Below, one piece after another: positions 1 to 11,860 of a stretch of 53,235 nucleotides of DNA. The notes beneath the pieces are model-generated. The model was not told the DNA's origin. It searched no databases and worked only from the letters and a program-made list of their open reading frames with translations. Position 1 is the stretch's first letter; each line of letters opens with the position of its first letter. Source of the stretch: Actinomycetota bacterium (GTDB lineage: Bacteria; Actinomycetota; Actinomycetes; Nanopelagicales; Nanopelagicaceae); contig VGBW01000008.1 of assembly GCA_016870365.1 (NCBI GenBank), positions 1 to 53,235 of the forward strand, given 5' to 3'. Made by a program: the position numbers and the translations under genes.

Positions 1-373
1 GCGTCCCTCCGGTGTGACCAAGGCCTCTCCCTGAAAGTTGTGGAACAGCGGCCCCACAAGCTGCCACTAAAGGCGCTAGTGGAAGTGTGATTTTGTCTCC
101 CACGCCACCAGTTGAATGTTTATCAACAGTTGGAATACCAAGGTTTTCCCAGTTCATTTTCTCACCACTATTAATCATGGCATCGGTCCAACGAGATATC
201 TCACGCATGTTCATACCATTCAAGAGTATTGCCATTAAGAGCGCTGATACCTGTTCATCAGCTACTACTCCACGGGTGTAGGCATCGACAATCCAGTCAA
301 TCTGTGAATCACTTAGTTCATTTCTATCACGCTTTGTCGAAATTATTTCGACAGCATCAAAGGCTTCACTCAT
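1..373 (-). CDS. deoA: Thymidine phosphorylase, N-terminal part (cut by window edge)
   Basis: I read this frame from the reverse strand: it starts at ATG 373 and runs off the window without a stop, giving about 124 residues. The helical N-terminus is followed by the pyrimidine-phosphorylase signature DKHSTGGVGDKITLPLAP and then SGRGLGHTGGT, the phosphate and substrate loops of the DeoA/Pdp family. The family splits thymidine or deoxyuridine (sometimes uridine) with phosphate into base and (deoxy)ribose-1-phosphate in the cytoplasm. It is the last visible gene of a leftward operon, 4 nt after the cdd stop, so deaminated cytidines made by Cdd are its likely substrate. Thymidine against general pyrimidine-nucleoside specificity cannot be decided from this fragment. 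Confidence 0.9.
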   Translation of the reverse strand, partial: MSEAFDAVEIISTKRDRNELSDSQIDWIVDAYTRGVVADEQVSALLMAILLNGMNMREISRWTDAMINSGEKMNWENLGIPTVDKHSTGGVGDKITLPLAPLVAACGAAVPQLSGRGLGHTGGT

Positions 374-377
374 GATC

Positions 378-770
378 TTACTTTTTCTGATCTAAATCAT
401 CAGGACCAAATCCCCAAGGAAGCATCACTGACATAGGCTGGGCTCCAGAGGGAGTTAATAGTTGAAGTTCATCTCCGCCGTGCTCAAATAGCAGTTGGCG
501 ACAACGCCCACAAGGTGAGAGAAGCTCACCTTTGCCATCAACGCAGAGGGCAGCAACTAGTCTTCCTCCACCACTCATTATTAAGTTTGAAACCATCGAG
601 CACTCGGCGCAGAGCGTTAGCCCATAGCTAGCATTCTCAACATTGCATCCACTAACTATTCGTCCATCACTGACTAAGCCAGCCGCCCCAACCGGAAAAC
701 TAGAATAAGGGGCATATGCAAATTTAGATGCAAGTATTGCCTCATCTTGCAATAACTTCCAATCGATCAT
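378..770 (-). CDS. cdd: Cytidine deaminase
   Basis: A 130-residue homotetrameric-type cytidine deaminase that converts cytidine/deoxycytidine to uridine/deoxyuridine. The zinc and catalytic motifs are visible: CAEC (catalytic Glu next to a zinc Cys) and PCGRCRQ (two further zinc Cys), plus the YAPYSSFPVGAA substrate segment near the N-terminus. I chose the ATG at 770 over the in-frame upstream codon at 809. The shorter form begins where the family normally begins, has AGGAGA 6 nt upstream, and does not overlap the upstream gene that ends at 778. It sits between the aldolase fusion and deoA, consistent with pyrimidine-nucleoside salvage. Confidence 0.93.
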   Translation of the reverse strand: MIDWKLLQDEAILASKFAYAPYSSFPVGAAGLVSDGRIVSGCNVENASYGLTLCAECSMVSNLIMSGGGRLVAALCVDGKGELLSPCGRCRQLLFEHGGDELQLLTPSGAQPMSVMLPWGFGPDDLDQKK

Positions 771-777
771 GGCTCTC

Positions 778-2745
778 CTATCTTGGAAATCCTGCGGCCA
801 CTCCGCCATCTACGGGAATCACTGCGCCAGTGGTCCGTGAAGATTCTTCCGAAAGTAAATGAGCAGCGCTGCGAGCAACATCAATGGATCGAACCCTTGT
901 TTTGAGAATATTGCGCTTGGCATAGAAATCCTCAAGTTCCTCAGGCTTAACACCATGTTCCTTGGCTCTCTGCTCGCGAATTCCACCCTCCCAGAGTTTG
1001 CTGTTATCAAATACCGCATCAGGATTTAGTGCATTGGCTCTAACTCCAATAGCTCCGCCCTCCAGTGCTGCAATTCTCATCAATTGAATCATCCCTGCCT
1101 TTGAAACTGAATATCCGCCAAAGCCAGCGCCGGGTGCAAAAGCATTTTTACTGGCGATATAAACCAGCGATCCCCCCATCCCCTGTCTCCGCATTGTGCG
1201 CATCGAGTGTTTTGTTAATAGGAATGAACTTGTCAGATTTACCTCCAAGCCTCTTCGCCACTGAGAAGAATCAAGATCCTCCAAAGACCCAGAGAGGCCA
1301 ATTCCAGCATTTAGAACTACGCCATCAAGTCCACCGAAATTATCTATGGTTTCTTCTAGAGTCTTTCTCACCACATCCTCATCGCTTTGATCTCCCTGGA
1401 CTAAAAGAGGCTTTGCATACTTTCCCGCTACAAATTCGGTTTCGGTCTGAGCAAGTCCCTCTAGATCGAGGTCAGCTAGAACTAGATTTGCTCCAAGTGA
1501 TCCAAGGTGGAGAGCAATTCCACGTCCGATTCCACTACCTGCTCCGGTAACAATAAAAATATTACCCATCATCTGCGGAGCCTTAGGTTTGAGTTTTAGT
1601 TTGTAGAGTTCCATGGGCCAGTAGTCGAAACCGAATATTTCACTATCAGGCAGAGTTCTAGGTCTTGGAAAAGAATCCACTACCTTTGAGCCGACGCTAT
1701 GGGTGTGGAAGGCAATGTCTGCCAACATATTTGTCTCACTAATTGAAGCTCCCGCACCAATCATCCCAATCCCTGGAGTCAGAAATACCCTTGGATCACT
1801 TCCGTGACTGGAATAACCCTGCGGCAGTGAAGATTTGTTCGCTTCAAAATATGCTTCATACCGTGCTCTATAGGAATCAACGGCAGTATCCACCTTATCT
1901 GGAGTCAAGATGCAAGACCAAGGTCTGATTCGTAGCATATGGTCAGCGCTAGCCGCCCCGGCTGCAACGACTTTATCTAAGTCTTGTCGATCTGAAATCT
2001 CTCGAAGTCTTCTATCAACTCGCAATACTTGTTTCTTCCCAATCTTTCCGCGTAGATGAAGCAAAAGTTCTCGAATTTGCTCTTGGCCTAGATCTTGATG
2101 GACAAATTCTGCTTTTGGCTTACTCTTTAGAGTTTCCAAGAAATCATTGGCCTTACCAACTGCCTCAAGGGTCTTTTCATAGCACCTCTGGCTATCATCG
2201 TCCCAAACAATTAGACCGTGATGAGCCAGCACTACCCCTTGATAGTCCTTTAATTCACTGACAAGTTTGGATAATCTAAATCCCGGTCTAATCCACTCAA
2301 CATAAGCAAAGCCTTCACCGAGTGCATCACCAACGGCATCTACGCCATCTTCATGATTAGTCAGTGCACAGATGGCATCTGCATGAACATGGTCTATATG
2401 CTTGGCAGGAAGGAAAGCATGTAGCAAAGTTTCAATTGAGGGGCGACGCGCACTGGGATCAACTAGAGCTCTGGTGACAAAATCGACCATCGTGTCATCA
2501 TCTAGATCGCCTCGAGACTTAAGGGCTGATAACTCATCAAGATATAAGGCGGGGTAATCAACGGCCTCTCCATACTGCATGTCTGCCCCTGAGCCCTTGA
2601 CCCATAGGACAGAACGATTGCGACCCAGATAGTCAGTTATCTCACCCTTGGCAGAGGTGTTCCCACCACCGTAGACCACGAGTGACTGATCAGCTCCAAT
2701 TAACTTGGAACGAGTTACCAATTCCTCCAAATCTGGATACTTCAC
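778..2745 (-). CDS. Class II aldolase / short-chain dehydrogenase fusion (RhaD/YuxG type)
   Basis: A 655-residue two-domain enzyme. Residues 1-350 are a class II (zinc) aldolase: GGGNTSAKG at 26-34 for phosphate, E105 in PSIETLLHA, and zinc-ligand candidates H119, H121 and H175/H176. Residues about 394-655 are an SDR with TGAGSGIG at 400-407, S532, Y545 and K549. In rhamnose degraders this architecture cleaves rhamnulose-1-phosphate to DHAP and lactaldehyde and oxidises the aldehyde. Here there are no rhamnose genes. It overlaps mtnA by 4 nt (GTGA), which points to 5-methylthioribulose-1-phosphate or 5-deoxyribulose-1-phosphate (perhaps ribulose-1-phosphate) as substrate, giving DHAP plus a C2 aldehyde handled by the SDR. 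The domain calls are firm; the substrate is inferred. The start codon is GTG. Confidence 0.85.
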   Translation of the reverse strand: MKYPDLEELVTRSKLIGADQSLVVYGGGNTSAKGEITDYLGRNRSVLWVKGSGADMQYGEAVDYPALYLDELSALKSRGDLDDDTMVDFVTRALVDPSARRPSIETLLHAFLPAKHIDHVHADAICALTNHEDGVDAVGDALGEGFAYVEWIRPGFRLSKLVSELKDYQGVVLAHHGLIVWDDDSQRCYEKTLEAVGKANDFLETLKSKPKAEFVHQDLGQEQIRELLLHLRGKIGKKQVLRVDRRLREISDRQDLDKVVAAGAASADHMLRIRPWSCILTPDKVDTAVDSYRARYEAYFEANKSSLPQGYSSHGSDPRVFLTPGIGMIGAGASISETNMLADIAFHTHSVGSKVVDSFPRPRTLPDSEIFGFDYWPMELYKLKLKPKAPQMMGNIFIVTGAGSGIGRGIALHLGSLGANLVLADLDLEGLAQTETEFVAGKYAKPLLVQGDQSDEDVVRKTLEETIDNFGGLDGVVLNAGIGLSGSLEDLDSSQWRRGLEVNLTSSFLLTKHSMRTMRRQGMGGSLVYIASKNAFAPGAGFGGYSVSKAGMIQLMRIAALEGGAIGVRANALNPDAVFDNSKLWEGGIREQRAKEHGVKPEELEDFYAKRNILKTRVRSIDVARSAAHLLSEESSRTTGAVIPVDGGVAAGFPR

Positions 2746-3752
2746 AGCCTCTCCCCTTTGCTAATCTCATAAACGCACTTCTCAGTAACAATAGCGGTGA
2801 TATATCTAGCTAAAGTCACATCAAATGCTGGGTTATAGCTCCTTGCCCCAAGAGGGGCAACGCTCTTTCCAGCAAAGTGAGTGACCTCGCTATCTGCTCT
2901 AAATTCAATCTCTATCTCTTCTCCGCTGGCAAGTGATCTATCAATTGTTGACTCTGGAGCGACTACTAGAAATGGAACACCACATTCTTTAGCAGCAATC
3001 GCTACTCCGAGTGATCCTATCTTGTTGGCGCTATCACCATTTCTGGCGATGCGATCTGCTCCAATCAATACCGCATCAACTAGACCTGAAAAGAGCGCGC
3101 TAGCTGCAGCCCCATCAGGAAGGATCCGATATTCAATGCCTGCCTCACTTAACTCCCAAGCAGTTAATCGAGAGCCTTGCAAGAGAGGGCGGGTCTCATC
3201 GGCAAGAACTTCTTGGACATATCCCTGCTCACCTAATTCTCGGATTACTCCAAGGGCCGTTCCCCAATCACTAGTTGCCAAAGATCCGGTGTTGCAATGG
3301 GTAAGAATTCGAAGTTTCTTTCTTCCACACTTTTCCAACAGATAGGCAGCCCCCCGTTTGCCCATCGCTCTATTTGCGAGGCCATCTGCTTGGCTAATGG
3401 CTAAAGCTGATTTCAAAACAGCGGCAGAACCTTGAGGCAAAAGCGGAGTAACTTGATCAACCCCCCAAGCCAGATTGACCGCAGTTGGGCGAGCAGCTCT
3501 TAGATCTGCAATTGCCTCACCTACCTTTACTTTGCTCCACCTCTTTTGCTCACTTCTAAGGGCGATCAGGGCCACCCCTAAAGCTCCAGCAACTCCCAGG
3601 GCGGGCGCTCCGCGAACAGCCAAGGTTTGGATTGCCTCAATTAACTCCTGATGGGTTCTTATGGTCAAGACTTTCTTCTCATGGGGCAGAAGGCGTTGAT
3701 CAATCAATATGATCGCCCCATCGCCTTCTTGGAGAAAATCAATGGTTCTCAC
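2742..3752 (-). CDS. mtnA: S-methyl-5-thioribose-1-phosphate isomerase family protein
   Basis: A 336-residue member of the MtnA/eIF2B-like aldose-1-phosphate isomerase family. It has RGAPALGVAGALG at 47-59, the catalytic Cys in HCNTG (C153), TRPLLQGSRLTAWEL at 187-201, and the catalytic Asp in GADRIARNGDSANKIGS (D233). The family isomerises 5-methylthioribose-1-phosphate to the ribulose form; close relatives act on 5-deoxyribose-1-phosphate or ribose-1,5-bisphosphate. It is the first gene of the leftward operon mtnA-aldolase/SDR-cdd-deoA. The start is GTG at 3752, with TAGACT six nt upstream and no Shine-Dalgarno, so the mRNA is probably leaderless. No classical downstream MtnB/C/D/E genes of the methionine salvage cycle are present in the window. 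Confidence 0.9.
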   Translation of the reverse strand: MRTIDFLQEGDGAIILIDQRLLPHEKKVLTIRTHQELIEAIQTLAVRGAPALGVAGALGVALIALRSEQKRWSKVKVGEAIADLRAARPTAVNLAWGVDQVTPLLPQGSAAVLKSALAISQADGLANRAMGKRGAAYLLEKCGRKKLRILTHCNTGSLATSDWGTALGVIRELGEQGYVQEVLADETRPLLQGSRLTAWELSEAGIEYRILPDGAAASALFSGLVDAVLIGADRIARNGDSANKIGSLGVAIAAKECGVPFLVVAPESTIDRSLASGEEIEIEFRADSEVTHFAGKSVAPLGARSYNPAFDVTLARYITAIVTEKCVYEISKGERL

Positions 3753-3758
3753 CTAAGC

Positions 3759-3764
3759 AGTCTA
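3759..3764 (-). promoter_or_regulatory. -10 box of a leaderless mtnA promoter
   Basis: Reverse-strand TAGACT lies 6 nt before the GTG of mtnA. The TANNNT-6/7 nt-start spacing is the usual pattern for leaderless actinobacterial genes and recurs at several genes in this window. Confidence 0.5.
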
Positions 3765-3816
3765 AAGCCAGAGTTGATACTTGGGAACCAGAGTTATGGC
3801 CGAAAATGGAAATAAG

Positions 3817-3830
3817 TCACAGAAATGTGA
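3817..3830. promoter_or_regulatory. Inverted repeat TCACA-N4-TGTGA in the divergent nucleoside intergenic region
   Basis: The sequence TCACAGAAATGTGA is a perfect 5-bp inverted repeat with a 4-nt spacer, followed at once by a second TGTGA. It lies 65 bp upstream of mtnA and about 180 bp upstream of the binding-protein gene. It could be a regulator half-site pair; the arm length is short enough for chance. Confidence 0.25.
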
Positions 3831-3948
3831 TGTGACACGGCGCATTTGGCATAGGCCAGTATTTCTCCTTGAAATCTGGCATGGATAGGATTCCCCGTAT
3901 CAGTGAGCCTCCCTGAAATAGTCACAAAAAGGAATCTATTTCCCCACT

Positions 3949-3967
3949 GGTAATCGATCGATTTACC
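3949..3967. promoter_or_regulatory. Palindromic operator candidate upstream of the nucleoside ABC operon
   Basis: A perfect 12-bp palindrome AATCGATCGATT (3952-3963) is flanked by GGT and TACC, making a nearly symmetric 19-bp element about 45 bp before the binding-protein start. Position and symmetry fit an operator for a dimeric regulator controlling the transport and salvage operon. The regulator family is not identifiable from the sequence. Confidence 0.45.
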
Positions 3968-4009
3968 CTCGGGCATACCTCAATGCCAGAGATCTTTGAG
4001 AGGAGATTC

Positions 4010-5041
4010 ATGATTAAGCGCGTGATATCTGTAGCGGCTGTAGTAGCACTTACAGCTCTAGGCTTTGCGGCCCCCTCCAAAGCAGCATCGGAAAGTGATT
4101 GCGGTACCGGAAAACTTTTCTGCATCGGCCTGGTGACTGATACTGGAAAAGTTGATGACAAATCATTTAACCAATCTGCTTGGACTGGTGCAAAGTTAGC
4201 GGCAAAAGTCAATGGTGGTTTCGCTAAGTACATTGAAACCACAGATCCAAAAGACTATGGCACAAATATCGGCCAGTTTGCAAGCAAGAAATACAATGTA
4301 ATTATCGGCGTTGGCTTCCTCATGGCAGAGGCCATGACTAAAGCTGCTGCTGACTACCCAAAGATTAAGTTCATTGGAGTAGATCAATTCCAGGGAGCTA
4401 CGATTCCTAATCTAACTGGCCTAGTTTTCCCAGAAGATAAGGCCGGCTTCCTTGCAGGATATCTAGCTGGACACCTAACAAAGACTGGTAAGACTGGTGC
4501 AGTTCTTGGAACTGACCTTGTTCCACCAGTTCGTTACTTCGGAGAGGGATACCGCAACGGCGTTGCATATGCTGCCAAGGAACTCGGCAAGAAGTATCCG
4601 GCTTCCAAATTGATCTATCACGCTCCAGATAACGCATTTAATGACCCAGCATGGGGTGGAACAACTGCTCAGCAGCTTCTCTCCCAGGGTTATGACGTCA
4701 TCTTCGGCGCAGGCGGAAACACTGGAAACGGTGCCCTACTTCGCGTTGCCAAGAAGAAGGGTGCATATTGCATCGGCGTTGATAGCGATCAATGGGGAAC
4801 AGTTCCTGAGGCTCGTCCTTGCCTTGTCACTTCAGCAATGAAGTTGATTGATAAGGGCGTTGCTGCGGTTATCGCCTCCATCGTTGATGGAAGCTCTAAC
4901 GGCGGAAACTATTTTGGAGCTGTTGGACTGGCTCCTCTGCATGATTTCGCAAAGAAAGTTCCTGCTGCTTATCAGGCTAAGTTGAAGGCAATCACTCCAA
5001 AGGTTCTAAATGGAACCGTTAAGACCGGAGTTAAGCTCTAA
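4010..5041 (+). CDS. BMP-family nucleoside-binding protein of ABC transporter
   Basis: About 343 residues. A Sec signal peptide (Lys-Arg, a hydrophobic stretch, then AAPSKAAS) leads into a BMP/PnrA-like substrate-binding domain with FCIGLVTDTGKVDDKSFNQSAW, the binding-pocket segment of the family that captures purine and other nucleosides. I moved the start to ATG 4010 because AGGAGA lies just upstream; the in-frame ATG at 3983 precedes that Shine-Dalgarno. Unlike most Gram-positive BMP proteins, there is no lipobox Cys at the end of the signal peptide; the first Cys is well inside the mature chain. It heads the operon with two permeases and an ATPase. Confidence 0.9.
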   Translation: MIKRVISVAAVVALTALGFAAPSKAASESDCGTGKLFCIGLVTDTGKVDDKSFNQSAWTGAKLAAKVNGGFAKYIETTDPKDYGTNIGQFASKKYNVIIGVGFLMAEAMTKAAADYPKIKFIGVDQFQGATIPNLTGLVFPEDKAGFLAGYLAGHLTKTGKTGAVLGTDLVPPVRYFGEGYRNGVAYAAKELGKKYPASKLIYHAPDNAFNDPAWGGTTAQQLLSQGYDVIFGAGGNTGNGALLRVAKKKGAYCIGVDSDQWGTVPEARPCLVTSAMKLIDKGVAAVIASIVDGSSNGGNYFGAVGLAPLHDFAKKVPAAYQAKLKAITPKVLNGTVKTGVKL

Positions 5042-5064
5042 GACTTGAATAAGGCTATGAAGAG

Positions 5065-5105
5065 AGGGAGATACGCCTTTAATTCTAGAAGGGGCGTATC
5101 TCCCT
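5065..5105 (+). terminator. Intercistronic hairpin between binding protein and permease
   Basis: A 13-bp perfect stem, AGGGAGATACGCC (5065-5077) with GGCGTATCTCCCT (5093-5105), has a 15-nt loop and only a short T run. It sits in the 109-nt gap after the binding-protein gene. Such hairpins commonly stabilise or terminate most messages, so that more binding protein than permease is made. Confidence 0.7.
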
Positions 5106-5150
5106 TTAGGTCAGAAGAGTGACTCAATTCGAAGATCATCGGAGTAGGTT

Positions 5151-6215
5151 GTGGATGCTAAGCAAGGTAGAAAACTTGATTTCAGCCCTATTCTAGTTCC
5201 GCTATTATCAATTGTTGTCGCTTTGGAATTTGGTGGCATCTTAGTTCTTGTTCAAGGGATAAATCCCCTTCTGGCTTATGAAGTCTTATTCACCACTGCC
5301 TTTGGTTCCTTTGATGGAATCGCAATCACTCTTGCCAAAGCCACTCCTTTGATCCTTAGTGGCTTGGCAGTAGCGATATGCCTTAGAGCAGGATTATTCA
5401 ATATCGGGGCTCAAGGCCAATTAATCTCTGGCGCCCTGGCCTCTGCATGGGCTGGATATACCTTCGTTGGCCTGCCTGCTCTGGTTCATGTCCCACTAGC
5501 TCTGATTTTTGGCGCGTTTTTTGGCGCCCTCGTGGCGCTAGTCGCAGGAGTGCTAAAGGCCTACCGCGGAGTTCACGAAGTTATTACAACCATCATGTTA
5601 AATAGCATCGTCATCGCTCTTTCTGATTATCTAACTAGCAACCCTTTTAAAGAGCCTGATCAGCCGCTTACTAGAACGCCAAAGATTCAAGATTCAGCCC
5701 AGATGCCGGACTTATTGGGCCTACCATTGGGATTCTTTCTAGCTATCGGCCTGTCCATCACGCTCTGGTGGATCATGAAAAATACCACCACTGGTTTTAG
5801 TATTGAAACGATTGGAAGAAATAAGAATGCTGGCTGGTATGCCGGAATCTCGGTAAAGAAAACCGTCATGTTAAGCATGCTAATTGGCGGAGCCGTGGCT
5901 GGCGTTGCTGGAGCAGTAGAAACCTTAAGCATTGTTGGAAGATTTGAGCCAGCTTTTAACGCCGGCCTCGGATTTGATGGAATTACCGTGGCCTTTCTTG
6001 GAAGAGCTAATCCGCTTGGAGTTATCCCTGCTGCAATTCTCATTGGTGGAATGAGAGCAAGTGCTTCGACTGTGCAATTTGAGGCAGGAGCGGCCCCTGA
6101 GTTAGTTGACCTACTTCTAGCAATGATTTTGTTCTTTGTCACTGCACCATTACTTGCGAAATTCTTTAAGAATCGCAAAGAGAGTGTAGCTATGACGAGT
6201 GGATGGAGCAATTAA
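5151..6215 (+). CDS. Nucleoside ABC transporter permease (YufP/NupP type)
   Basis: A 354-residue membrane protein with about 8-10 hydrophobic helices and the BPD_transp_2 core. It has SGLAVAICLRAGLFNIGAQGQ near residues 75-95, which is characteristic of permeases paired with BMP proteins, and a conserved region near GAVAGVAGAVE. It forms half of the membrane channel for nucleoside uptake. The start is GTG at 5151 with GGAG upstream. Its stop overlaps the next permease start by one base (TAATG), so the two are translationally coupled. The gene belongs to the rightward operon after the hairpin. Confidence 0.92.
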   Translation: MDAKQGRKLDFSPILVPLLSIVVALEFGGILVLVQGINPLLAYEVLFTTAFGSFDGIAITLAKATPLILSGLAVAICLRAGLFNIGAQGQLISGALASAWAGYTFVGLPALVHVPLALIFGAFFGALVALVAGVLKAYRGVHEVITTIMLNSIVIALSDYLTSNPFKEPDQPLTRTPKIQDSAQMPDLLGLPLGFFLAIGLSITLWWIMKNTTTGFSIETIGRNKNAGWYAGISVKKTVMLSMLIGGAVAGVAGAVETLSIVGRFEPAFNAGLGFDGITVAFLGRANPLGVIPAAILIGGMRASASTVQFEAGAAPELVDLLLAMILFFVTAPLLAKFFKNRKESVAMTSGWSN

Positions 6216-7195
6216 TGAAACTTCGCACTAGTCACTATATAACTCTTGCATTCCTTGTAGTCTTTACATATTTCTATCGTAAGGATGGATTGGTAGCCAC
6301 TTCAGTTCTCTACACCGCAATTCAATTTGCACTCCCCTTAGCCCTTGCCGCAATGGTCGGTGTGATGTGTGAGCGGACTGGAGTTGTAAACATCGGCATT
6401 GAAGGAACGATGTTATTCTCAGCATTTACTGCCTTCTTTGCAGGGGCGATCATGAAAGATACAGTTCAAGGGATGTTTGTTGGCGTCTTCACCGGTGCGA
6501 TGATGGGGCTGCTCCTGGCCCTCATGGCAGTTAGTTGGAAGATGAATCAGATTATTGCTGGGGTGATTATCAATATTTTGGCAGCCGGCATCACTTCCTT
6601 TTACTACCGCCAAAACTACTCAATCCCCGCAACGCTCCACCCCATTGATCTTCCAGTGGTTGGAGCCTGGCCCATACTTGGTCCAGTCCTTTCATTCCAT
6701 GGACCGATTACCTACTTCGGAATCCTCTTTATCCTGGCTCTCTGGTTTGCGCTCTATAAGACCTCATGGGGATTACGCTCTCGAGCGGTTGGTGAACAAC
6801 CAGCAAGTGCTGATACTGCAGGAGTCTCGGTCACAAGACTGCGCTATATGAATGTAACTATTGCTGGAGCAGTAGGTGGGCTTGCTGGTTCTTATCTAGC
6901 TCTTGAAGCAGTAGGAATATTTGAGCGAGGATTTACCGCAGGAAAAGGCTTTACCGCCCTTGCCATCATGATCTTTGGTAGATGGAATCCACTTGGAGCA
7001 CTTGCTGCCGCGCTGTTTTTTGGATTGACTCAAGCTGTCACTAATCAATTAATGATTGATGAGGTAGTAGAAATTCCTCCACAATTCATAACCATGCTTC
7101 CCTATATCTTAACAATTCTCGTCCTGGCTATCTCTGCCGGAAAGGTTCGCCCTCCTGCTGCTGAGGGCATTGCATATGAGAAGGAGAAGTCATGA
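6215..7195 (+). CDS. Nucleoside ABC transporter permease (YufQ/NupQ type)
   Basis: A membrane permease of about 326 residues with many hydrophobic segments and the family motif ERTGVVNIGIEGTMLFSAF near residues 50-70, followed by helices ending in a short cytoplasmic tail. It partners the preceding permease. I set the start at ATG 6215, not the in-frame ATG at 6203, because GGAG lies 6 nt before it and this gives the TAATG junction typical of the operon. Its stop overlaps the ATPase start (ATGA). Confidence 0.92.
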   Translation: MKLRTSHYITLAFLVVFTYFYRKDGLVATSVLYTAIQFALPLALAAMVGVMCERTGVVNIGIEGTMLFSAFTAFFAGAIMKDTVQGMFVGVFTGAMMGLLLALMAVSWKMNQIIAGVIINILAAGITSFYYRQNYSIPATLHPIDLPVVGAWPILGPVLSFHGPITYFGILFILALWFALYKTSWGLRSRAVGEQPASADTAGVSVTRLRYMNVTIAGAVGGLAGSYLALEAVGIFERGFTAGKGFTALAIMIFGRWNPLGALAAALFFGLTQAVTNQLMIDEVVEIPPQFITMLPYILTILVLAISAGKVRPPAAEGIAYEKEKS

Positions 7196-8700
7196 ACACT
7201 CTTCTAGAAATTGAGGGTGTCAGCAAGAGGTTTGGTGCAGTAATTGCCAATGAGAATATCTCGCTAACTGTTAAAGGGGGCGAGATTCTGGCTCTTCTTG
7301 GTGAAAATGGCGCTGGGAAATCAACTTTAGTTAAGGCGGTCTTTGGTCTAGTAAGGCCGGATTCTGGCACCATAAAAATTGATGGCATTGTCATGGAAAG
7401 TAGTGACACGGCAGCAGCAATCGCCCGTGGCGTAGGGATGGTGCATCAGCATTTTCAACTAGTTCCCGTGATGAGCGTTACTGAGAACCTAATTCTAGGA
7501 GATGAACCAAAGAGATTTGGCGTTCTAAACATCAAGCGAGCAAGAGCTGAAGTCTTGAGTCTTTCAGAAAAATACGGCCTTGAGGTTGATCCCGATGCCA
7601 TCATCGAAGATCTTCCGGTGGGAATGGCTCAAAGAGTTGAGATTCTGAAAGCCCTTAGACGCGATGTTAAGTTGCTGATTCTGGATGAACCAACTGCAGT
7701 TCTAACTCCTCAAGAAACCGATGAACTACTTGAAGTTCTAAGAAATCTTGCCAAGCGTGGGGTTGGGATCCTATTTATCACCCATAAATTACGTGAGGTC
7801 ATGGCCGTTGCCGATCGAATCGCTGTTCTGCGCGATGGGAAGCTAATGGGAACTACCACTCCAAAGGAAAGTAGTGAATCCAAGCTAGCTCAGATGATGG
7901 TAGGCCGTGAGGTTGTCCTCCGAGTGGAAAAGGGCCCAGGCAAGCCCAAAGAGGTCCTTCTTGCCGTTAGGAATCTTAAGGTTATTGATGACAGAAAACT
8001 CGAAGCAGTTAGGGATTTATCCCTTGAAGTTCATGCTGGTGAAATCTTGGGTATTGCAGGTGTTGAGGGAAATGGCCAGAGAGAGTTAGTTGAAGCAATT
8101 TGTAGCATGCGTCCTCGCTCAAGCGGAGAGGTAATGGTCAAAGGCCAAGTGATTCCAAATCTAAGTCCTAGAGCAGCACACTTGGCAGGGGTATCTCATA
8201 TTCCTGAAGACCGAGAGAAGCATGGGCTAGTAACTTCTTATTCAATTGCCGATAATTTGGTTTTGAATAGATTTGATCAGGCACCTTTTGCCAATGGTTG
8301 GATTAGAAATCTAGAAAAAGTTGCCAATAATGGCGAGGCCCTTGTTGAGAAATTTGATATCAGGGCTCCAAACGCTTCTCTATCTGCAGACTCACTATCT
8401 GGCGGAAATAAGCAGAAGGTTGTCGTTGCCCGAGAACTAAGTCAGCAACTAGATGTAGTTGTTGCATCTCAACCCACAAGAGGAATTGATGTGGGATCAA
8501 TTGAATTTATCCACAATCAACTAATTTCTGCTCGCGATGCTGGGGCTGCCGTTCTCTTGGTTTCAGCAGAGCTAGATGAGATCCTCTCACTGGCTGACAG
8601 AATCGCAGTCATCTCTAATGGCAAGATCGTTGCTACATTTGGTTCTAAAGAGGCAGATAGAAATACCATCGGCCGATTGATGGCCGGCCTGGCATCCTGA
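7192..8700 (+). CDS. Nucleoside ABC transporter ATPase, two nucleotide-binding domains
   Basis: A 502-residue tandem ATPase of the NupO/RbsA class. Domain 1 has Walker A GENGAGKST (37-45), a modified signature LPVGM (141-145) and Walker B LLILDEP (161-167). Domain 2 has a degenerate P-loop GVEGNGQRE (290-298), the canonical signature LSGGN (402-406) and an altered Walker B (VVVASQPTRGID). One active and one degenerate site is normal for this class. It drives uptake through the two upstream permeases. GAAGGAGA precedes the ATG, which overlaps the permease stop. Confidence 0.95.
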   Translation: MNTLLEIEGVSKRFGAVIANENISLTVKGGEILALLGENGAGKSTLVKAVFGLVRPDSGTIKIDGIVMESSDTAAAIARGVGMVHQHFQLVPVMSVTENLILGDEPKRFGVLNIKRARAEVLSLSEKYGLEVDPDAIIEDLPVGMAQRVEILKALRRDVKLLILDEPTAVLTPQETDELLEVLRNLAKRGVGILFITHKLREVMAVADRIAVLRDGKLMGTTTPKESSESKLAQMMVGREVVLRVEKGPGKPKEVLLAVRNLKVIDDRKLEAVRDLSLEVHAGEILGIAGVEGNGQRELVEAICSMRPRSSGEVMVKGQVIPNLSPRAAHLAGVSHIPEDREKHGLVTSYSIADNLVLNRFDQAPFANGWIRNLEKVANNGEALVEKFDIRAPNASLSADSLSGGNKQKVVVARELSQQLDVVVASQPTRGIDVGSIEFIHNQLISARDAGAAVLLVSAELDEILSLADRIAVISNGKIVATFGSKEADRNTIGRLMAGLAS

Positions 8701-8704
8701 TTCG

Positions 8705-9454
8705 ATGCCAAAGTCGATTGGATTAATTGCTGGAACTGGTTTTTATGACCTGCCTGCTCTAAAGGATGGTGTAGCCAAAGAGATAGATACCAACTATGGA
8801 GAGGCATCAGTCAAAAGCGGTACTTGGAACGGTGTGAACCTAGTATTCCTGACTCGCCATGGCAGCGGCCATAGCATCCCGCCTCATCTAATCAATTATC
8901 GAGCCAATATCAAGGCGATGAAGGACTTGGGCGTTGAGGAGATAATTGCAATTAATGTTGTTGGGGGAATCGATCCAAGACTTGCACCTGGTGACCTATC
9001 GCTAATTGATGACTTTGTTGACTTCACCTCTGGGCGAGAACACACCTTCTCGGATGGATCTAAGCCTGGAGTCCAACATGTTGACCTGACTCGCGCCTAT
9101 GATCCAAAAATACAGGGTGCTCTTCGCCAAAGCGCTAAGGCCTTAGGAATTTTGCTTCATGAGAATGGAATCTATGCTGGATTTAATGGACCTAGATTTG
9201 AAACTCCCTCAGAGATTCGCCTTGCCAGTCTTGCCGGGGCAACAGTAGTTGGAATGACGGGATGTCCTGAAGTGAGCTTGGCAAGGGAGATAGGTATTGC
9301 CTATGCCAGCCTAGCTCTTGTTGTAAATCCTGCTGCAGGACTAGGTGAGAGTGAAATAGCTATGGATGAGATAAATAGAGCCCTTGATTCTGGTAAGTCT
9401 AAAGCCTTAGCAGTTATTGAGGGCGCACTAAAGGTTTTGGCTCAAAGTGAATAA
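8705..9454 (+). CDS. MTA/MTI phosphorylase family, S-methyl-5'-thioinosine phosphorylase-like
   Basis: A 249-residue member of the PNP/MTAP (phosphorylase family 2) fold: GLIAGTGF for phosphate at 6-13, RHGSGHSIPPH at 51-61, FTSGREHTF at 107-115, NGPRFETP at 161-168, and MTGCPE at 184-189. Where human MTAP carries the Asp-Tyr-Asp that recognises the 6-amino group of adenine, this protein has VVNPAAG (206-212), with Asn at 208. Pseudomonas S-methyl-5'-thioinosine phosphorylase, as I recall it, has the same segment. That predicts a 6-oxopurine substrate, fitting the deaminase gene that overlaps its 3' end by 8 nt. Products would be hypoxanthine and methylthioribose-1-phosphate. The exact 5' group accepted is not proven. 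Confidence 0.85.
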   Translation: MPKSIGLIAGTGFYDLPALKDGVAKEIDTNYGEASVKSGTWNGVNLVFLTRHGSGHSIPPHLINYRANIKAMKDLGVEEIIAINVVGGIDPRLAPGDLSLIDDFVDFTSGREHTFSDGSKPGVQHVDLTRAYDPKIQGALRQSAKALGILLHENGIYAGFNGPRFETPSEIRLASLAGATVVGMTGCPEVSLAREIGIAYASLALVVNPAAGLGESEIAMDEINRALDSGKSKALAVIEGALKVLAQSE

Positions 9455-10763
9455 CCTTGATTTAGTAATTGATAATGCAACATATGTTGTTACCTCGGAT
9501 AGCCAAGATAGAGTTCTGAGGGATTACGCTATTGGAATTTTAGATAAGAAGATTGTTGCGATTCAAAGTGCAAGGACATTGAAAGGCGCTACAACCTATG
9601 ACGCTAAAGGCAAACTGATTGCACCAGGATTAATCAACACTCATACCCATCTAGCAATGTCCTTGCTTCGTGGCTGGGCTGAAGGGGTAAGCCTTCAAGG
9701 ATTCCTAGAAAGAGTCTGGGCAGCTGAGAGCTTGATCATGAACCCAAGGAACGTTGCCTTGGGAAGCCAACTTGGAGCCTTGGAATCTTTGCTTGCGGGA
9801 ACTACAACCACCCTTGATATGTATCTCTACCCAGATGCGGCCCATAAGGGAGCAGCAAGTACTGGAATTCGCCATATCACTGGGCCGCTTTTCTTTGATT
9901 TTACCGGTCTTGATGGTCTTGGCTGGGAGATGAGATTGGAGATAGCAAAGAAATGGCAGCAAGTCTTACAAGAAGTTGGCGGACCAGATGTTCCAGCATA
10001 TCTGATGCCCCATTCCACCTACACCGTCTCACCAGATCACCTAGTTGAAATTGGAAAATTAGCGAAAGAGATTGGGGCATCAATAAGCATTCATGTCTCT
10101 GAGAATTTAAGAGAGAATGATGATGTTCAGAAGCGATTTGGAAAATCTCCAACTGCAATACTCAAAGAGACTGGCATCTTAGAGTCTCATACTTTGTTGG
10201 GCCATGGCGTTCACCTATCAGATGAGGATATTGAATCACTGGTTGGAGCAGGTGCTGCCGTGGCACATTGCCCAGGAAGCAATCTCAAATTAGGAAGCGG
10301 AATTGCCGATATCAAGAAATATCGGGATAGCAAGCTCTGTGTTGCACTCGGCACTGATGGTTGCTCATCAAGTAATGATCTAGATATGTGGGCGGTAATA
10401 AGAATGGCTGCCAACTTATATGCCCAGAGCAATGGCCCTGAAAACTTAAGAGCAAATCAGATATTCCGAATGGCCACAATCGAGGCAGCAAGAGCGCTAG
10501 GACTTGAGAGTTCAATTGGAAGCATTGAAGTGGGCAAGAGCGCAGATTTGATATCAATAGAGCTGAATAAAGCTCACCTAATTCCACTCCATGACACATT
10601 CGCTCAGCTAGTCTTCGCAGCAGGGCGTGGCGACATTAGTGATGTTTGGGTGGACGGAAAACAGGTTATAGCCAATGGTAAATCAACGCTAATCGCTTTC
10701 TGCCAATTATCTAAAGAGGTAGAGGCTGCTATGCAGACCTTGCGTAAGGAATTTCATGGATAA
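9447..10763 (+). CDS. Amidohydrolase, MTA/SAH/adenosine deaminase (MtaD/SsnA-like)
   Basis: A 438-residue amidohydrolase with an N-terminal composite beta domain, then a TIM barrel. The full metal and catalytic set is visible: HTH at 66-68, H216 and E219 in SIHVSEN, H253 in GHGVHLS, and D304 in LGTDGCSSSND. This pattern belongs to the MTA/S-adenosylhomocysteine/adenosine deaminase and related aminohydrolase group, which removes the 6-amino group of adenine nucleosides. Its GTG start lies inside the preceding phosphorylase gene, and the pairing suggests MTA to MTI, or 5'-deoxyadenosine to 5'-deoxyinosine. Cytosine, guanine or pterin substrates are other possibilities in this superfamily. Confidence 0.82.
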   Translation: MNNLDLVIDNATYVVTSDSQDRVLRDYAIGILDKKIVAIQSARTLKGATTYDAKGKLIAPGLINTHTHLAMSLLRGWAEGVSLQGFLERVWAAESLIMNPRNVALGSQLGALESLLAGTTTTLDMYLYPDAAHKGAASTGIRHITGPLFFDFTGLDGLGWEMRLEIAKKWQQVLQEVGGPDVPAYLMPHSTYTVSPDHLVEIGKLAKEIGASISIHVSENLRENDDVQKRFGKSPTAILKETGILESHTLLGHGVHLSDEDIESLVGAGAAVAHCPGSNLKLGSGIADIKKYRDSKLCVALGTDGCSSSNDLDMWAVIRMAANLYAQSNGPENLRANQIFRMATIEAARALGLESSIGSIEVGKSADLISIELNKAHLIPLHDTFAQLVFAAGRGDISDVWVDGKQVIANGKSTLIAFCQLSKEVEAAMQTLRKEFHG

Positions 10764-11181
10764 GGACGAGTTGATAGCAAGACTTGATTTACAGCCCCTT
10801 GAAGGCGAAGGGGGCTTGTATTCAAGGATTTATCGAGATGAATTGAGTAATGCCATCTATTTCATGGTGATTTCCCCTGACTTTTCAGCATGGCATCGCC
10901 TGCCTCAAGCAGAGCTCTGGCTCCACCTGTCTGGAGATCCTCTCCTCCTCCACACCATTGAAAAGGGCCATCTAATGACTCATCGACTAGAGCGCGAAGG
11001 AAATACTCGCCACTACCGAGTGCCAGCTAATACTTGGATGGCTGCAGAGAGTTCTAGGTCTTACTCGCTGGTTAGCTGCTTTCTGGCCCCAGCTTTTTCA
11101 ACTATGGAATTAGCCAGTAGAGATGAGTTAGTCTCTCAATATCCAGACATTTCCGACCTACCGGAGTTATTTCATGAATAA
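10756..11181 (+). CDS. Cupin superfamily protein, DUF985 (cupin_5)
   Basis: A 141-residue single-domain protein matching the DUF985 pattern: EGEGGLYSRIYRDE, then AIYFMVISPDFSAWHRL, ELWLHLSGDPLLLH and PANTWMAAE. The fold is a beta-barrel cupin; the biochemical function of the family is not established. It overlaps the deaminase stop by 8 nt and the next SDR start by 8 nt, so it is clearly part of the nucleoside operon, perhaps acting on a sugar or aldehyde product. That role is speculation. Confidence 0.8.
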   Translation: MDKDELIARLDLQPLEGEGGLYSRIYRDELSNAIYFMVISPDFSAWHRLPQAELWLHLSGDPLLLHTIEKGHLMTHRLEREGNTRHYRVPANTWMAAESSRSYSLVSCFLAPAFSTMELASRDELVSQYPDISDLPELFHE

Positions 11182-11860
11182 TCAACAATCGATTCTAATC
11201 ACAGGCGCTGGCGGATTAGTTGGGTCGGCTCTTTGCAAAACTTTCGTTTCTGCAGGATGGAAAGTCTTTGGTCAGGTAAATAGCTCCAAAGGTATCGATG
11301 GCATTGAAGTAATAAAGAGAGATTTATCCAAAGCTTCAAGTGGCACCGAGCTTGTAGAGCAGATTGGCGCAATGGATTGCGTAATAAATAATGCCGCCGA
11401 TCAATCAGTTCTGAATCTTGAGGATTATTCATCGAATAGGGCCCAAGAGATCTTTCAAATAAATCTACTATCCCCGATTGAAATAATTCTTGCCGCCAAA
11501 ACCAAGGGCGCTAGATTAGCTATCAATATTTCATCAATCGAAGCTTTGAATACTAGATCAGGTCATGAAATCTATGGGGCCTCAAAGTCAGCCCTAGAGT
11601 CAGCTACCCGCTCACTGGCCCTATCGCTAGCTCCAATGCGAATAAATGGAATCAGATTAGGTCTTATTGGAGATAACCAACTAGAGAATAGATGGCCGGA
11701 AGGATTTACATCGTGGACAAATACTGTCCCGGTTGGACGTATTGGAAATGCCGAGGAAGTTGCAAACCTTGCTCTCGCGCTAACTAGTGAAACTTTTGAT
11801 TTTGCCACTGGAAGTATCATAGATTTCGATGGCGGCAAGAGCGCTCATCCAGGGTGGTAG
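11174..11860 (+). CDS. Short-chain dehydrogenase/reductase
   Basis: A 228-residue classical SDR. It has the cofactor motif TGAGGLVG from residue 10, NNAA in the central strand, a Ser in NISSIEA, and the catalytic YGASK. The C-terminus FDGGKSAHPGW is typical for the family. It is the last gene of the rightward nucleoside operon, overlapping the cupin gene by 8 nt. An alcohol or aldehyde from the aldolase branch would be a natural substrate, but specificity cannot be read from the sequence. Its stop codon directly abuts the stop of the opposite-strand BMP gene. Confidence 0.85.
   Translation: MNNQQSILITGAGGLVGSALCKTFVSAGWKVFGQVNSSKGIDGIEVIKRDLSKASSGTELVEQIGAMDCVINNAADQSVLNLEDYSSNRAQEIFQINLLSPIEIILAAKTKGARLAINISSIEALNTRSGHEIYGASKSALESATRSLALSLAPMRINGIRLGLIGDNQLENRWPEGFTSWTNTVPVGRIGNAEEVANLALALTSETFDFATGSIIDFDGGKSAHPGW

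Follow-up and report, generated by a model that had tools for sequence, protein, structure and literature searches.

The window analysed here, meaning the whole stretch of 53,235 nucleotides, is contig C8 (positions 1 to 53235) of an assembly of 1.29 Mb in 25 contigs that is 96% complete. According to the list of open reading frames (ORFs) and the Pfam and NCBIfam models, its left end carries two divergent operons. The minus-strand operon consists of mtnA and a gene in which a class II aldolase is fused to a short-chain dehydrogenase/reductase (SDR), the two ORFs sharing 4 bp, and extends past the fusion to cdd and then to deoA/pdp. The plus-strand operon encodes an importer with a BMP-type binding protein, a nucleoside phosphorylase and an amidohydrolase, and terminates in a DUF985 cupin and a second SDR (Table 1). 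The original prediction had named mtnA, the fusion, the importer, the phosphorylase and the amidohydrolase in two divergent operons, and the family models and ORF positions agree with it; cdd, deoA/pdp, the cupin and the second SDR are additions to it. We suggest, with a probability of roughly 0.7, that the locus would encode a deaminating, phosphorylase-type dihydroxyacetone phosphate (DHAP) shunt for 5'-modified adenosines derived from S-adenosylmethionine (SAM), provided with a nucleoside importer of the BMP family.

In the proposed route, 5'-deoxyadenosine and/or 5'-methylthioadenosine (MTA) would be imported by the BMP-type ABC system and deaminated to 5'-deoxyinosine or S-methyl-5'-thioinosine (MTI), whose phosphorolysis would release hypoxanthine and 5-deoxy- or 5-methylthio-ribose-1-phosphate. 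MtnA would then isomerise the sugar to the corresponding ribulose-1-phosphate, class II aldol cleavage would yield DHAP and acetaldehyde or methylthioacetaldehyde, and the fused SDR would oxidise the aldehyde with NAD+. The substrate of every step, the aldehyde oxidation and the specificity of the importer are predicted from sequence.

Table 1. Features at the left end of the window (positions in the window, with strand)
Feature	Position	Strand	Basis
Pyrimidine-nucleoside/thymidine phosphorylase (deoA/pdp), N-terminal part	2..373	-	Partial TIGR02644 / NF004490 matches; contig end cuts gene
Cytidine deaminase (cdd)	378..809	-	NF004064 169.4 bits, cut-off 74
Class II aldolase/SDR fusion	778..2745	-	Pfam/NCBIfam: Aldolase_II residues ~9-194, SDR ~393-650
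MtnA, S-methyl-5-thioribose-1-phosphate isomerase family	2742..3752	-	TIGR00512 379.6 bits, cut-off 279
Candidate -10 element TAGACT, 7-12 nt before mtnA start	3759..3764	-	Block conserved upstream of mtnA in genus
BMP/PnrA-type substrate-binding protein, importer	3983..5041	+	PF02608; nearest solved chains 7x0r, TmpC 2fqw
ABC permease 1	5151..6215	+	Assigned by operon position; conserved in cluster
ABC permease 2	6203..7195	+	Assigned by operon position; conserved in cluster
ABC ATPase, 502 aa	7192..8700	+	P-loop GENGAGKST in translation; conserved in cluster
MTI-type (6-oxopurine, 5'-modified) nucleoside phosphorylase	8705..9454	+	NF006599 254.5 bits, cut-off 223
Amidohydrolase, likely MTA/5'-deoxyadenosine deaminase	9447..10763	+	Nearest solved chains 4dyk, 4gbd, 4f0r
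DUF985 cupin (Cupin_5), conserved cluster member	10756..11181	+	PF06172
Second SDR, 228 aa, conserved cluster member	11174..11860	+	SDR by Pfam
The permeases and the ATPase were named by sight and position.

The phosphorylase passes the NF006599 model for S-methyl-5'-thioinosine phosphorylase and stays below the MTAP model (245.6 bits, cut-off 274.85), and 101 of 233 aligned residues are identical to those of chain 3ozb, which we take to be the MTI phosphorylase of Pseudomonas aeruginosa. We aligned it with its cluster homologues, two PUNPs of sister genomes, 3ozb and one MTAP. In particular, we could observe E166 and N208, as in 3ozb and PUNP, at positions where MTAP has Ser and Asp, and M220, again as in 3ozb, in a column where the sister-genome PUNPs have His and the more distant cluster phosphorylases I or V. 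Judging from PNP and MTAP structures, the Glu/Asn columns decide between 6-oxo- and 6-aminopurines, and column 220 corresponds to recognition of the 5'-OH. As for the amidohydrolase, its best solved relatives are 4dyk and 4gbd, whose PDB names are uninformative and which we take to be the P. aeruginosa MTA deaminase, together with 4f0r, named 5-methylthioadenosine/S-adenosylhomocysteine deaminase.

MtnA is an orthodox member of its family (TIGR00512), and its identity as a ribose-1,5-bisphosphate isomerase was rejected (TIGR00511, 144.5 bits against a cut-off of 314.1). The presumed catalytic residues are conserved in its alignment, C153 in 35 of 37 rows (the other two being gaps) and D233 in all 37. 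Likewise, in an alignment that counts the split locus L103 as two rows, the fusion keeps E105, H119, H121 and H175/H176, which we assume to be the aldolase ligands, in all rows covering them (37/38, the rest gaps), and its SDR domain keeps the Gly-motif, D425, S532, Y545 and K549, assumed to be the functional residues, again in all rows covering them (34/38, the rest gaps).

The domain order and family of the fusion are those of RhaEW (NF006190, TIGR02632), which would fit an ordinary rhamnose enzyme whose neighbourhood with mtnA is incidental. However, the fusion scores under the RhaEW cut-off of TIGR02632 (519.6 against 567.75), and RhaEW is reported, in the available part of PMC3870299, as always lying within rha loci. 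A profile of the seven fusions of the genus was scanned against genome contigs: at least 42 loci were obtained, six of which (L131-L136) match the SDR part only and were dropped, leaving 36, three of them (L095, L096, L112) apparently identical to genus-genome records. Each of the 36 loci listed has mtnA immediately upstream of the fusion, and in 28 of them the two genes overlap by 4 bp; the locus context was judged by mtnA, rha genes not being searched by name. Since, in addition, a DrdA-like enzyme replaces the fusion in sister genomes, a rhamnose-type function appears highly unlikely, and the fusion is best read as the partner of MtnA, completing the order deaminase, phosphorylase, MtnA, aldolase that had been put forward for this locus. 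The records are mostly titled uncultured actinobacteria, several of them Candidatus Nanopelagicales, with two Bifidobacterium breve, one Rubrivirga sp. and one uncultured bacterium (titles unchecked).

The kinship with RhaEW is informative for the last step. RhaEW converts rhamnulose-1-phosphate with NAD+ to DHAP and lactate, and reductase activity was not seen, according to the available text of PMC3870299; because of this, the fused SDR is expected to oxidise its aldehyde. By analogy, it would probably carry out an NAD+-dependent oxidation to the acid, and the end products would probably be DHAP and acetate or methylthioacetate. Of the DHAP and C2 aldehyde first proposed as products, the free aldehyde would thus probably not be an end product.

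The neighbours of the mtnA-fusion pair point in the same metabolic direction. Deaminase and phosphorylase genes occur in 10 of the 36 loci listed (L095, L096, L112, L117, L119, L121-L125), and in six of the 36 (L117, L119, L122-L125) homologues of mtnB, mtnC and mtnD, recognised by BLAST to L119/L123, stand beside them, between the fusion and the phosphorylase; no mtnB/C/D genes accompany the two in L121. Curated cut-offs are passed by MtnC and MtnB of L123, MtnB of L119, and ARD in L117, L119, L123 and L124; the MtnC candidates of L117 and L125 give a general HAD match only, the MtnD candidates of L119 and L123 have no NCBIfam match, and the other candidates are named on a BLAST basis. An S-methyl-5-thioribose kinase gene (mtnK-like) adjoins the pair in five of the 36 (L099, L106, L108, L110, L128), the kinase of L099 being over the cut-off and the other four identified by BLAST. 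Such neighbours place the pair in MTA/5'-deoxynucleoside metabolism: it is found next to the kinase entry, next to the phosphorylase entry and next to methionine-salvage genes.

Some further arrangements were noted around the pair. Of the 10 deaminase-bearing loci listed, nine (all except L121) also have the cupin and the 228-aa SDR. In L099, L106 and L108 the pair occurs with the S-methyl-5-thioribose kinase, an RbsB-like sugar ABC importer, a split transketolase/DXS-like pair and a RuBisCO-like protein (RLP); L110 has only kinase and importer, the importer is missing from L128, an RLP-like ORF is found by BLAST in 16 of the 36 loci listed, and parts of this context recur in further loci, which may represent a branch resembling the MTA-isoprenoid shunt. 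A gene of the methylmalonyl-CoA mutase large-subunit type lies upstream of mtnA in 8 of the 36 loci listed (L117, L119, L121, L122, L124-L127), directly before it in six, as identified by a family model for L119 and by BLAST for the others. Adenosylcobalamin enzymes can shed 5'-deoxyadenosine, so this may be a functional neighbourhood.

For the survey of the genus we considered 24 genomes, with completeness from 67 to 99%, seven of them at least 90% complete. mtnA is present in 12 of the 24, the genome of the window included, and in two of those seven; the 12 mtnA genomes have one class II aldolase domain apiece, the other 12 none. The corresponding value, 1/C(24,12) = 3.7e-7, is descriptive, as the genomes are related and the genes linked. 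That the genes should be conserved together was a check proposed with the original prediction, and it came out in its favour: in 12/12 mtnA-bearing genomes mtnA has the genes for importer, phosphorylase and deaminase as neighbours, and the aldolase gene adjoins mtnA in 11, the exception being G023, where one contig ends after mtnA and the aldolase begins another. Strong deaminase matches occur in 13/24 genomes: every mtnA genome plus G008, where the 3.4-kb contig stops shortly past the phosphorylase. The search at E <= 0.001 reported a match in 14/24, and the weak ones (G009, G011, G000) presumably stem from other amidohydrolases. An MTI-type phosphorylase is found in 13/24. In G001 the ORFs of the ATPase, phosphorylase and SDR, and in G002 those of permease 1 and the cupin, are split or shortened.

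The aldolase comes in two types. The fusion is present in seven of the 12 mtnA genomes; in the other five (G002, G003, G019, G021, G023) its place is taken by a free aldolase some 216 aa long, and a PDB search with the G002 protein, the only one used as a query, gave DrdA (6btd) as the top match (E 6.4e-24). The design thus does not depend on the fusion. In trees of MtnA and of the deaminase the two types are mixed among close relatives (2 and 3 label changes, respectively); well-supported inner branches are few (2/9 and 3/9), and the exchange of aldolase type may have had a single origin.

Other entries and exits for the sugar were sought in the same genomes. MtnK is over its cut-off in 0/24, the genome of the window giving two weak sub-cut-off matches that apparently belong to one 336-aa ORF. 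Its PF01048 proteins are two, the MTI-type enzyme and one of DeoD type, which leaves no MtnN; an earlier idea that this genome is without a general purine phosphorylase was dropped, the second protein being of DeoD type. It contains no class II aldolase domain besides the fusion at the cut-offs used, hence no MtnB, and MtnD (ARD) was not found in the 24 genomes at the cut-offs used. Of the set that defines standard aerobic methionine salvage (MtnB, MtnC/MtnW, MtnD), MtnB and MtnD are therefore missing, MtnC and MtnW not having been searched genome-wide. As MtnD and MtnB were not found in the genus, the aldolase branch remains. With regard to the source of the nucleosides, spermidine synthase was not found in the genome of the window at the cut-off used, and 5'-deoxyadenosine could come from radical SAM enzymes, for which this genome shows seven matches (two lie at contig ends). 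AhcY is over its cut-off in 22/24 genomes, including that of the window, which makes S-adenosylhomocysteine less likely as the main substrate of the deaminase.

The missing MtnD, together with the mtnB/C/D-like genes that relatives carry between fusion and phosphorylase, would also be expected if the cluster were the remnant of a methionine-salvage cluster that has lost mtnB/C/D and now serves only to detoxify MTA, with no net carbon gain. We consider this quite unlikely, since the aldolase is retained in every mtnA-bearing genome of the genus, and in two types, which argues for a working cleavage step; the importer genes, too, are present in 12/12, with one permease ORF split (G002) and one ATPase ORF shortened (G001).

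The downstream genes of the minus-strand operon raise a different alternative, in which ordinary nucleosides would be degraded from ribose-1-phosphate by the MtnA homologue to ribulose-1-phosphate and by the aldolase to DHAP and glycolaldehyde, bypassing the pentose-phosphate route. The aldolase gene is followed in its operon by cdd and deoA, and DeoB was not found in the 24 genomes; moreover, among the 12 cluster genomes, tandem uridine-phosphorylase-type genes occur only in G010 and a PUNP-type match in none, this typing resting on match position and ORF length in assemblies several of which are incomplete. Halophilic archaea reportedly use a ribulose-1-phosphate aldolase in nucleoside catabolism, which counts for the same alternative. 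On the other hand, the genome of the window retains a phosphohexomutase-family gene beside deoC, possibly a phosphopentomutase, as well as the DeoD phosphorylase, the 5'-position His is absent from the window phosphorylase, and the same genes sit with mtnB/C/D-like or mtnK-like genes in relatives. In addition, sister genomes devoid of mtnA have cdd-deoA beside a different importer, so that these genes look like older residents, which mtnA and the aldolase joined later. We thus regard this alternative as unlikely. It is similarly improbable that the operon serves to degrade the sugar of every imported nucleoside, with MtnA and the aldolase taking, besides the 5'-modified sugars, ordinary ribose-1-phosphate supplied by cdd/deoA and the phosphorylase to DHAP and glycolate, which would give a streamlined bacterium a kinase-free bypass of the pentose-phosphate route.

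The comparison with the sisters rests on the following loci. The BMP protein of the window is 34% identical to that of the importer beside cdd-deoA in G018 and G013, both without mtnA, and it is plausible, from sequence comparison, that the importer of the window is dedicated to the 5'-modified nucleosides. In G013 the cdd-deoA/importer locus adjoins trpS, as in the window, and the stretch ends at deoA; in G011 only the permeases of that importer are in view (L056-L058). A PUNP gene lies in G018 and G011 beside a 544-aa ORF occupying the mutase position. In the window, cdd overlaps the fusion ORF and its actual start is possibly internal. The remaining portion of deoA/pdp forms the end of contig C6, where it is followed on the opposite strand by two aldehyde-dehydrogenase-type ORFs, deoC and a 541-aa phosphohexomutase-family ORF, the names of the former two types and of deoC being transferred from counterparts in L017. 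A second, diverged BMP-type protein (PF02608; 11861-12817), convergent to the cluster, adjoins trpS in the window, and its homologues also occur in G018 and G013. An alternative nucleoside locus, with tandem uridine-phosphorylase-like genes and a ribonucleoside-hydrolase-type gene beside another ABC-type locus, was noticed in G015 (L093, 6108-8544) and G010 (L094), the latter having both it and the mtnA cluster.

Several observations weigh against a deaminating shunt for 5'-modified adenosines. mtnA is missing from 12 of the 24 genomes, including five of the seven best assemblies, and the cluster is therefore dispensable. The deaminase is over none of the NCBIfam equivalog cut-offs (25 families listed; NF005557, 277.2 against 522; NF012037, 223 against 779), and the sub-cut-off RhaEW score of the fusion leaves the aldehyde oxidation resting on analogy. 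Moreover, the phosphorylases of G012 and G017 have Glu in column 220, and the presence of cdd and deoA in the operon suggests ordinary nucleosides as well. Finally, the related phosphorylase of Methanocaldococcus jannaschii is promiscuous, as stated in the available part of PMC6302742, so that ordinary inosine may also serve as a substrate.

The region upstream of mtnA contains a block strongly conserved in the genus comparison. A riboswitch was considered and rejected, since Rfam gave no match, either with the gathering cut-offs or with E values of up to 1; in a wider comparison, a promoter with TAGACT/TAGGCT just before the start fits the block better, and the mRNA is possibly leaderless. 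A sigma-70 scan gave no promoter-like site upstream of mtnA (shuffles mean 0.7), and one terminator-like site was found at 3846-3859 (shuffles mean 0.3). In 10 of the 36 loci listed (L098, L099, L106-L110, L120, L126, L127) a pattern search located a palindrome of the AGTTGTAGGACAACT type upstream of mtnA, mostly beside a divergent gene of GntR type, assigned as GntR/UTRA by Pfam in L107 and by BLAST in the others; it was not found in the window.

The fate of 5'-deoxyadenosine and MTA is poorly known beyond a few model organisms. If the proposed shunt is correct, small-genome actinobacteria could import SAM-derived nucleosides lost by other cells and, needing no sugar kinase, regain from them the purine as well as carbon, and deamination plus phosphorolysis would be a third entry into the DHAP shunt, besides the two named in the available part of PMC10986504. 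A function would also be suggested for proteins scoring as "rhamnulose-1-phosphate aldolase/short-chain dehydrogenase", and the genus would offer a natural swap of two different class II aldolases at one step, usable for testing.

Compared with known systems, the individual steps are familiar. All four, from deamination through phosphorolysis and isomerisation to aldol cleavage, have been published and are mostly strung together in PMC6302742, whose available text reviews the P. aeruginosa MTA deaminase/MTI phosphorylase route and the M. jannaschii 5'-deoxyadenosine deaminase with its promiscuous phosphorylase, and already suggests an aldolase as the following step. The distinctness claimed at first is thus too strong a word for the steps; their combination in one operon looks new, and we found no description of a deaminase in a DHAP-shunt operon in the open-access library searched. 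The DHAP shunt (Pfs/MtnK/MtnA/Ald2 in Escherichia coli, with an MtnP variant) shares MtnA isomerisation and class II aldol cleavage to DHAP and an aldehyde. It is entered by nucleosidase and kinase or by MtnP (PMC10986504, available part), whereas the window would enter by deamination and a 6-oxopurine phosphorylase; the fused aldolase/dehydrogenase is a further difference. The E. coli operon includes a putative transporter gene (PMC12632272, available part), comparable to the importer here, which differs in being a BMP-type ABC system. The DrdK/DrdI/DrdA salvage of 5-deoxyribose in Bacillus thuringiensis and its phosphorylase-type clusters likewise combine an MtnA paralogue with an aldolase; in the available part of PMC6079011, kinase- or phosphorylase-isomerase-aldolase clusters are described, four of those depicted including putative sugar transporters, and in vitro evidence is given for the B. 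thuringiensis route. The window differs from it in having no kinase, in the added deaminase, and in its aldolase, a fusion belonging to a different branch of the class II family. The first three chemical steps are those of the M. jannaschii deaminase, MTI phosphorylase and MtnA, which are archaeal and, in the text available, not presented as one gene cluster, the later step proposed there leading to 6'-deoxy-5-ketofructose 1-phosphate (PMC6079011, available part). The P. aeruginosa route is described as MTA degradation and methionine salvage, whereas in the genome of the window MtnB and MtnD were not found and an aldolase follows mtnA. Its two enzymes (4dyk/4gbd and 3ozb, as assigned above) are the nearest solved homologues of the deaminase and phosphorylase of the window. 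Finally, the fusion shares domain order and family with RhaEW, a rhamnulose-1-phosphate aldolase with lactaldehyde dehydrogenase, but it scores under the family cut-off, is paired with mtnA in every locus listed, and would be expected to act on a derivative of D-ribulose-1-phosphate.

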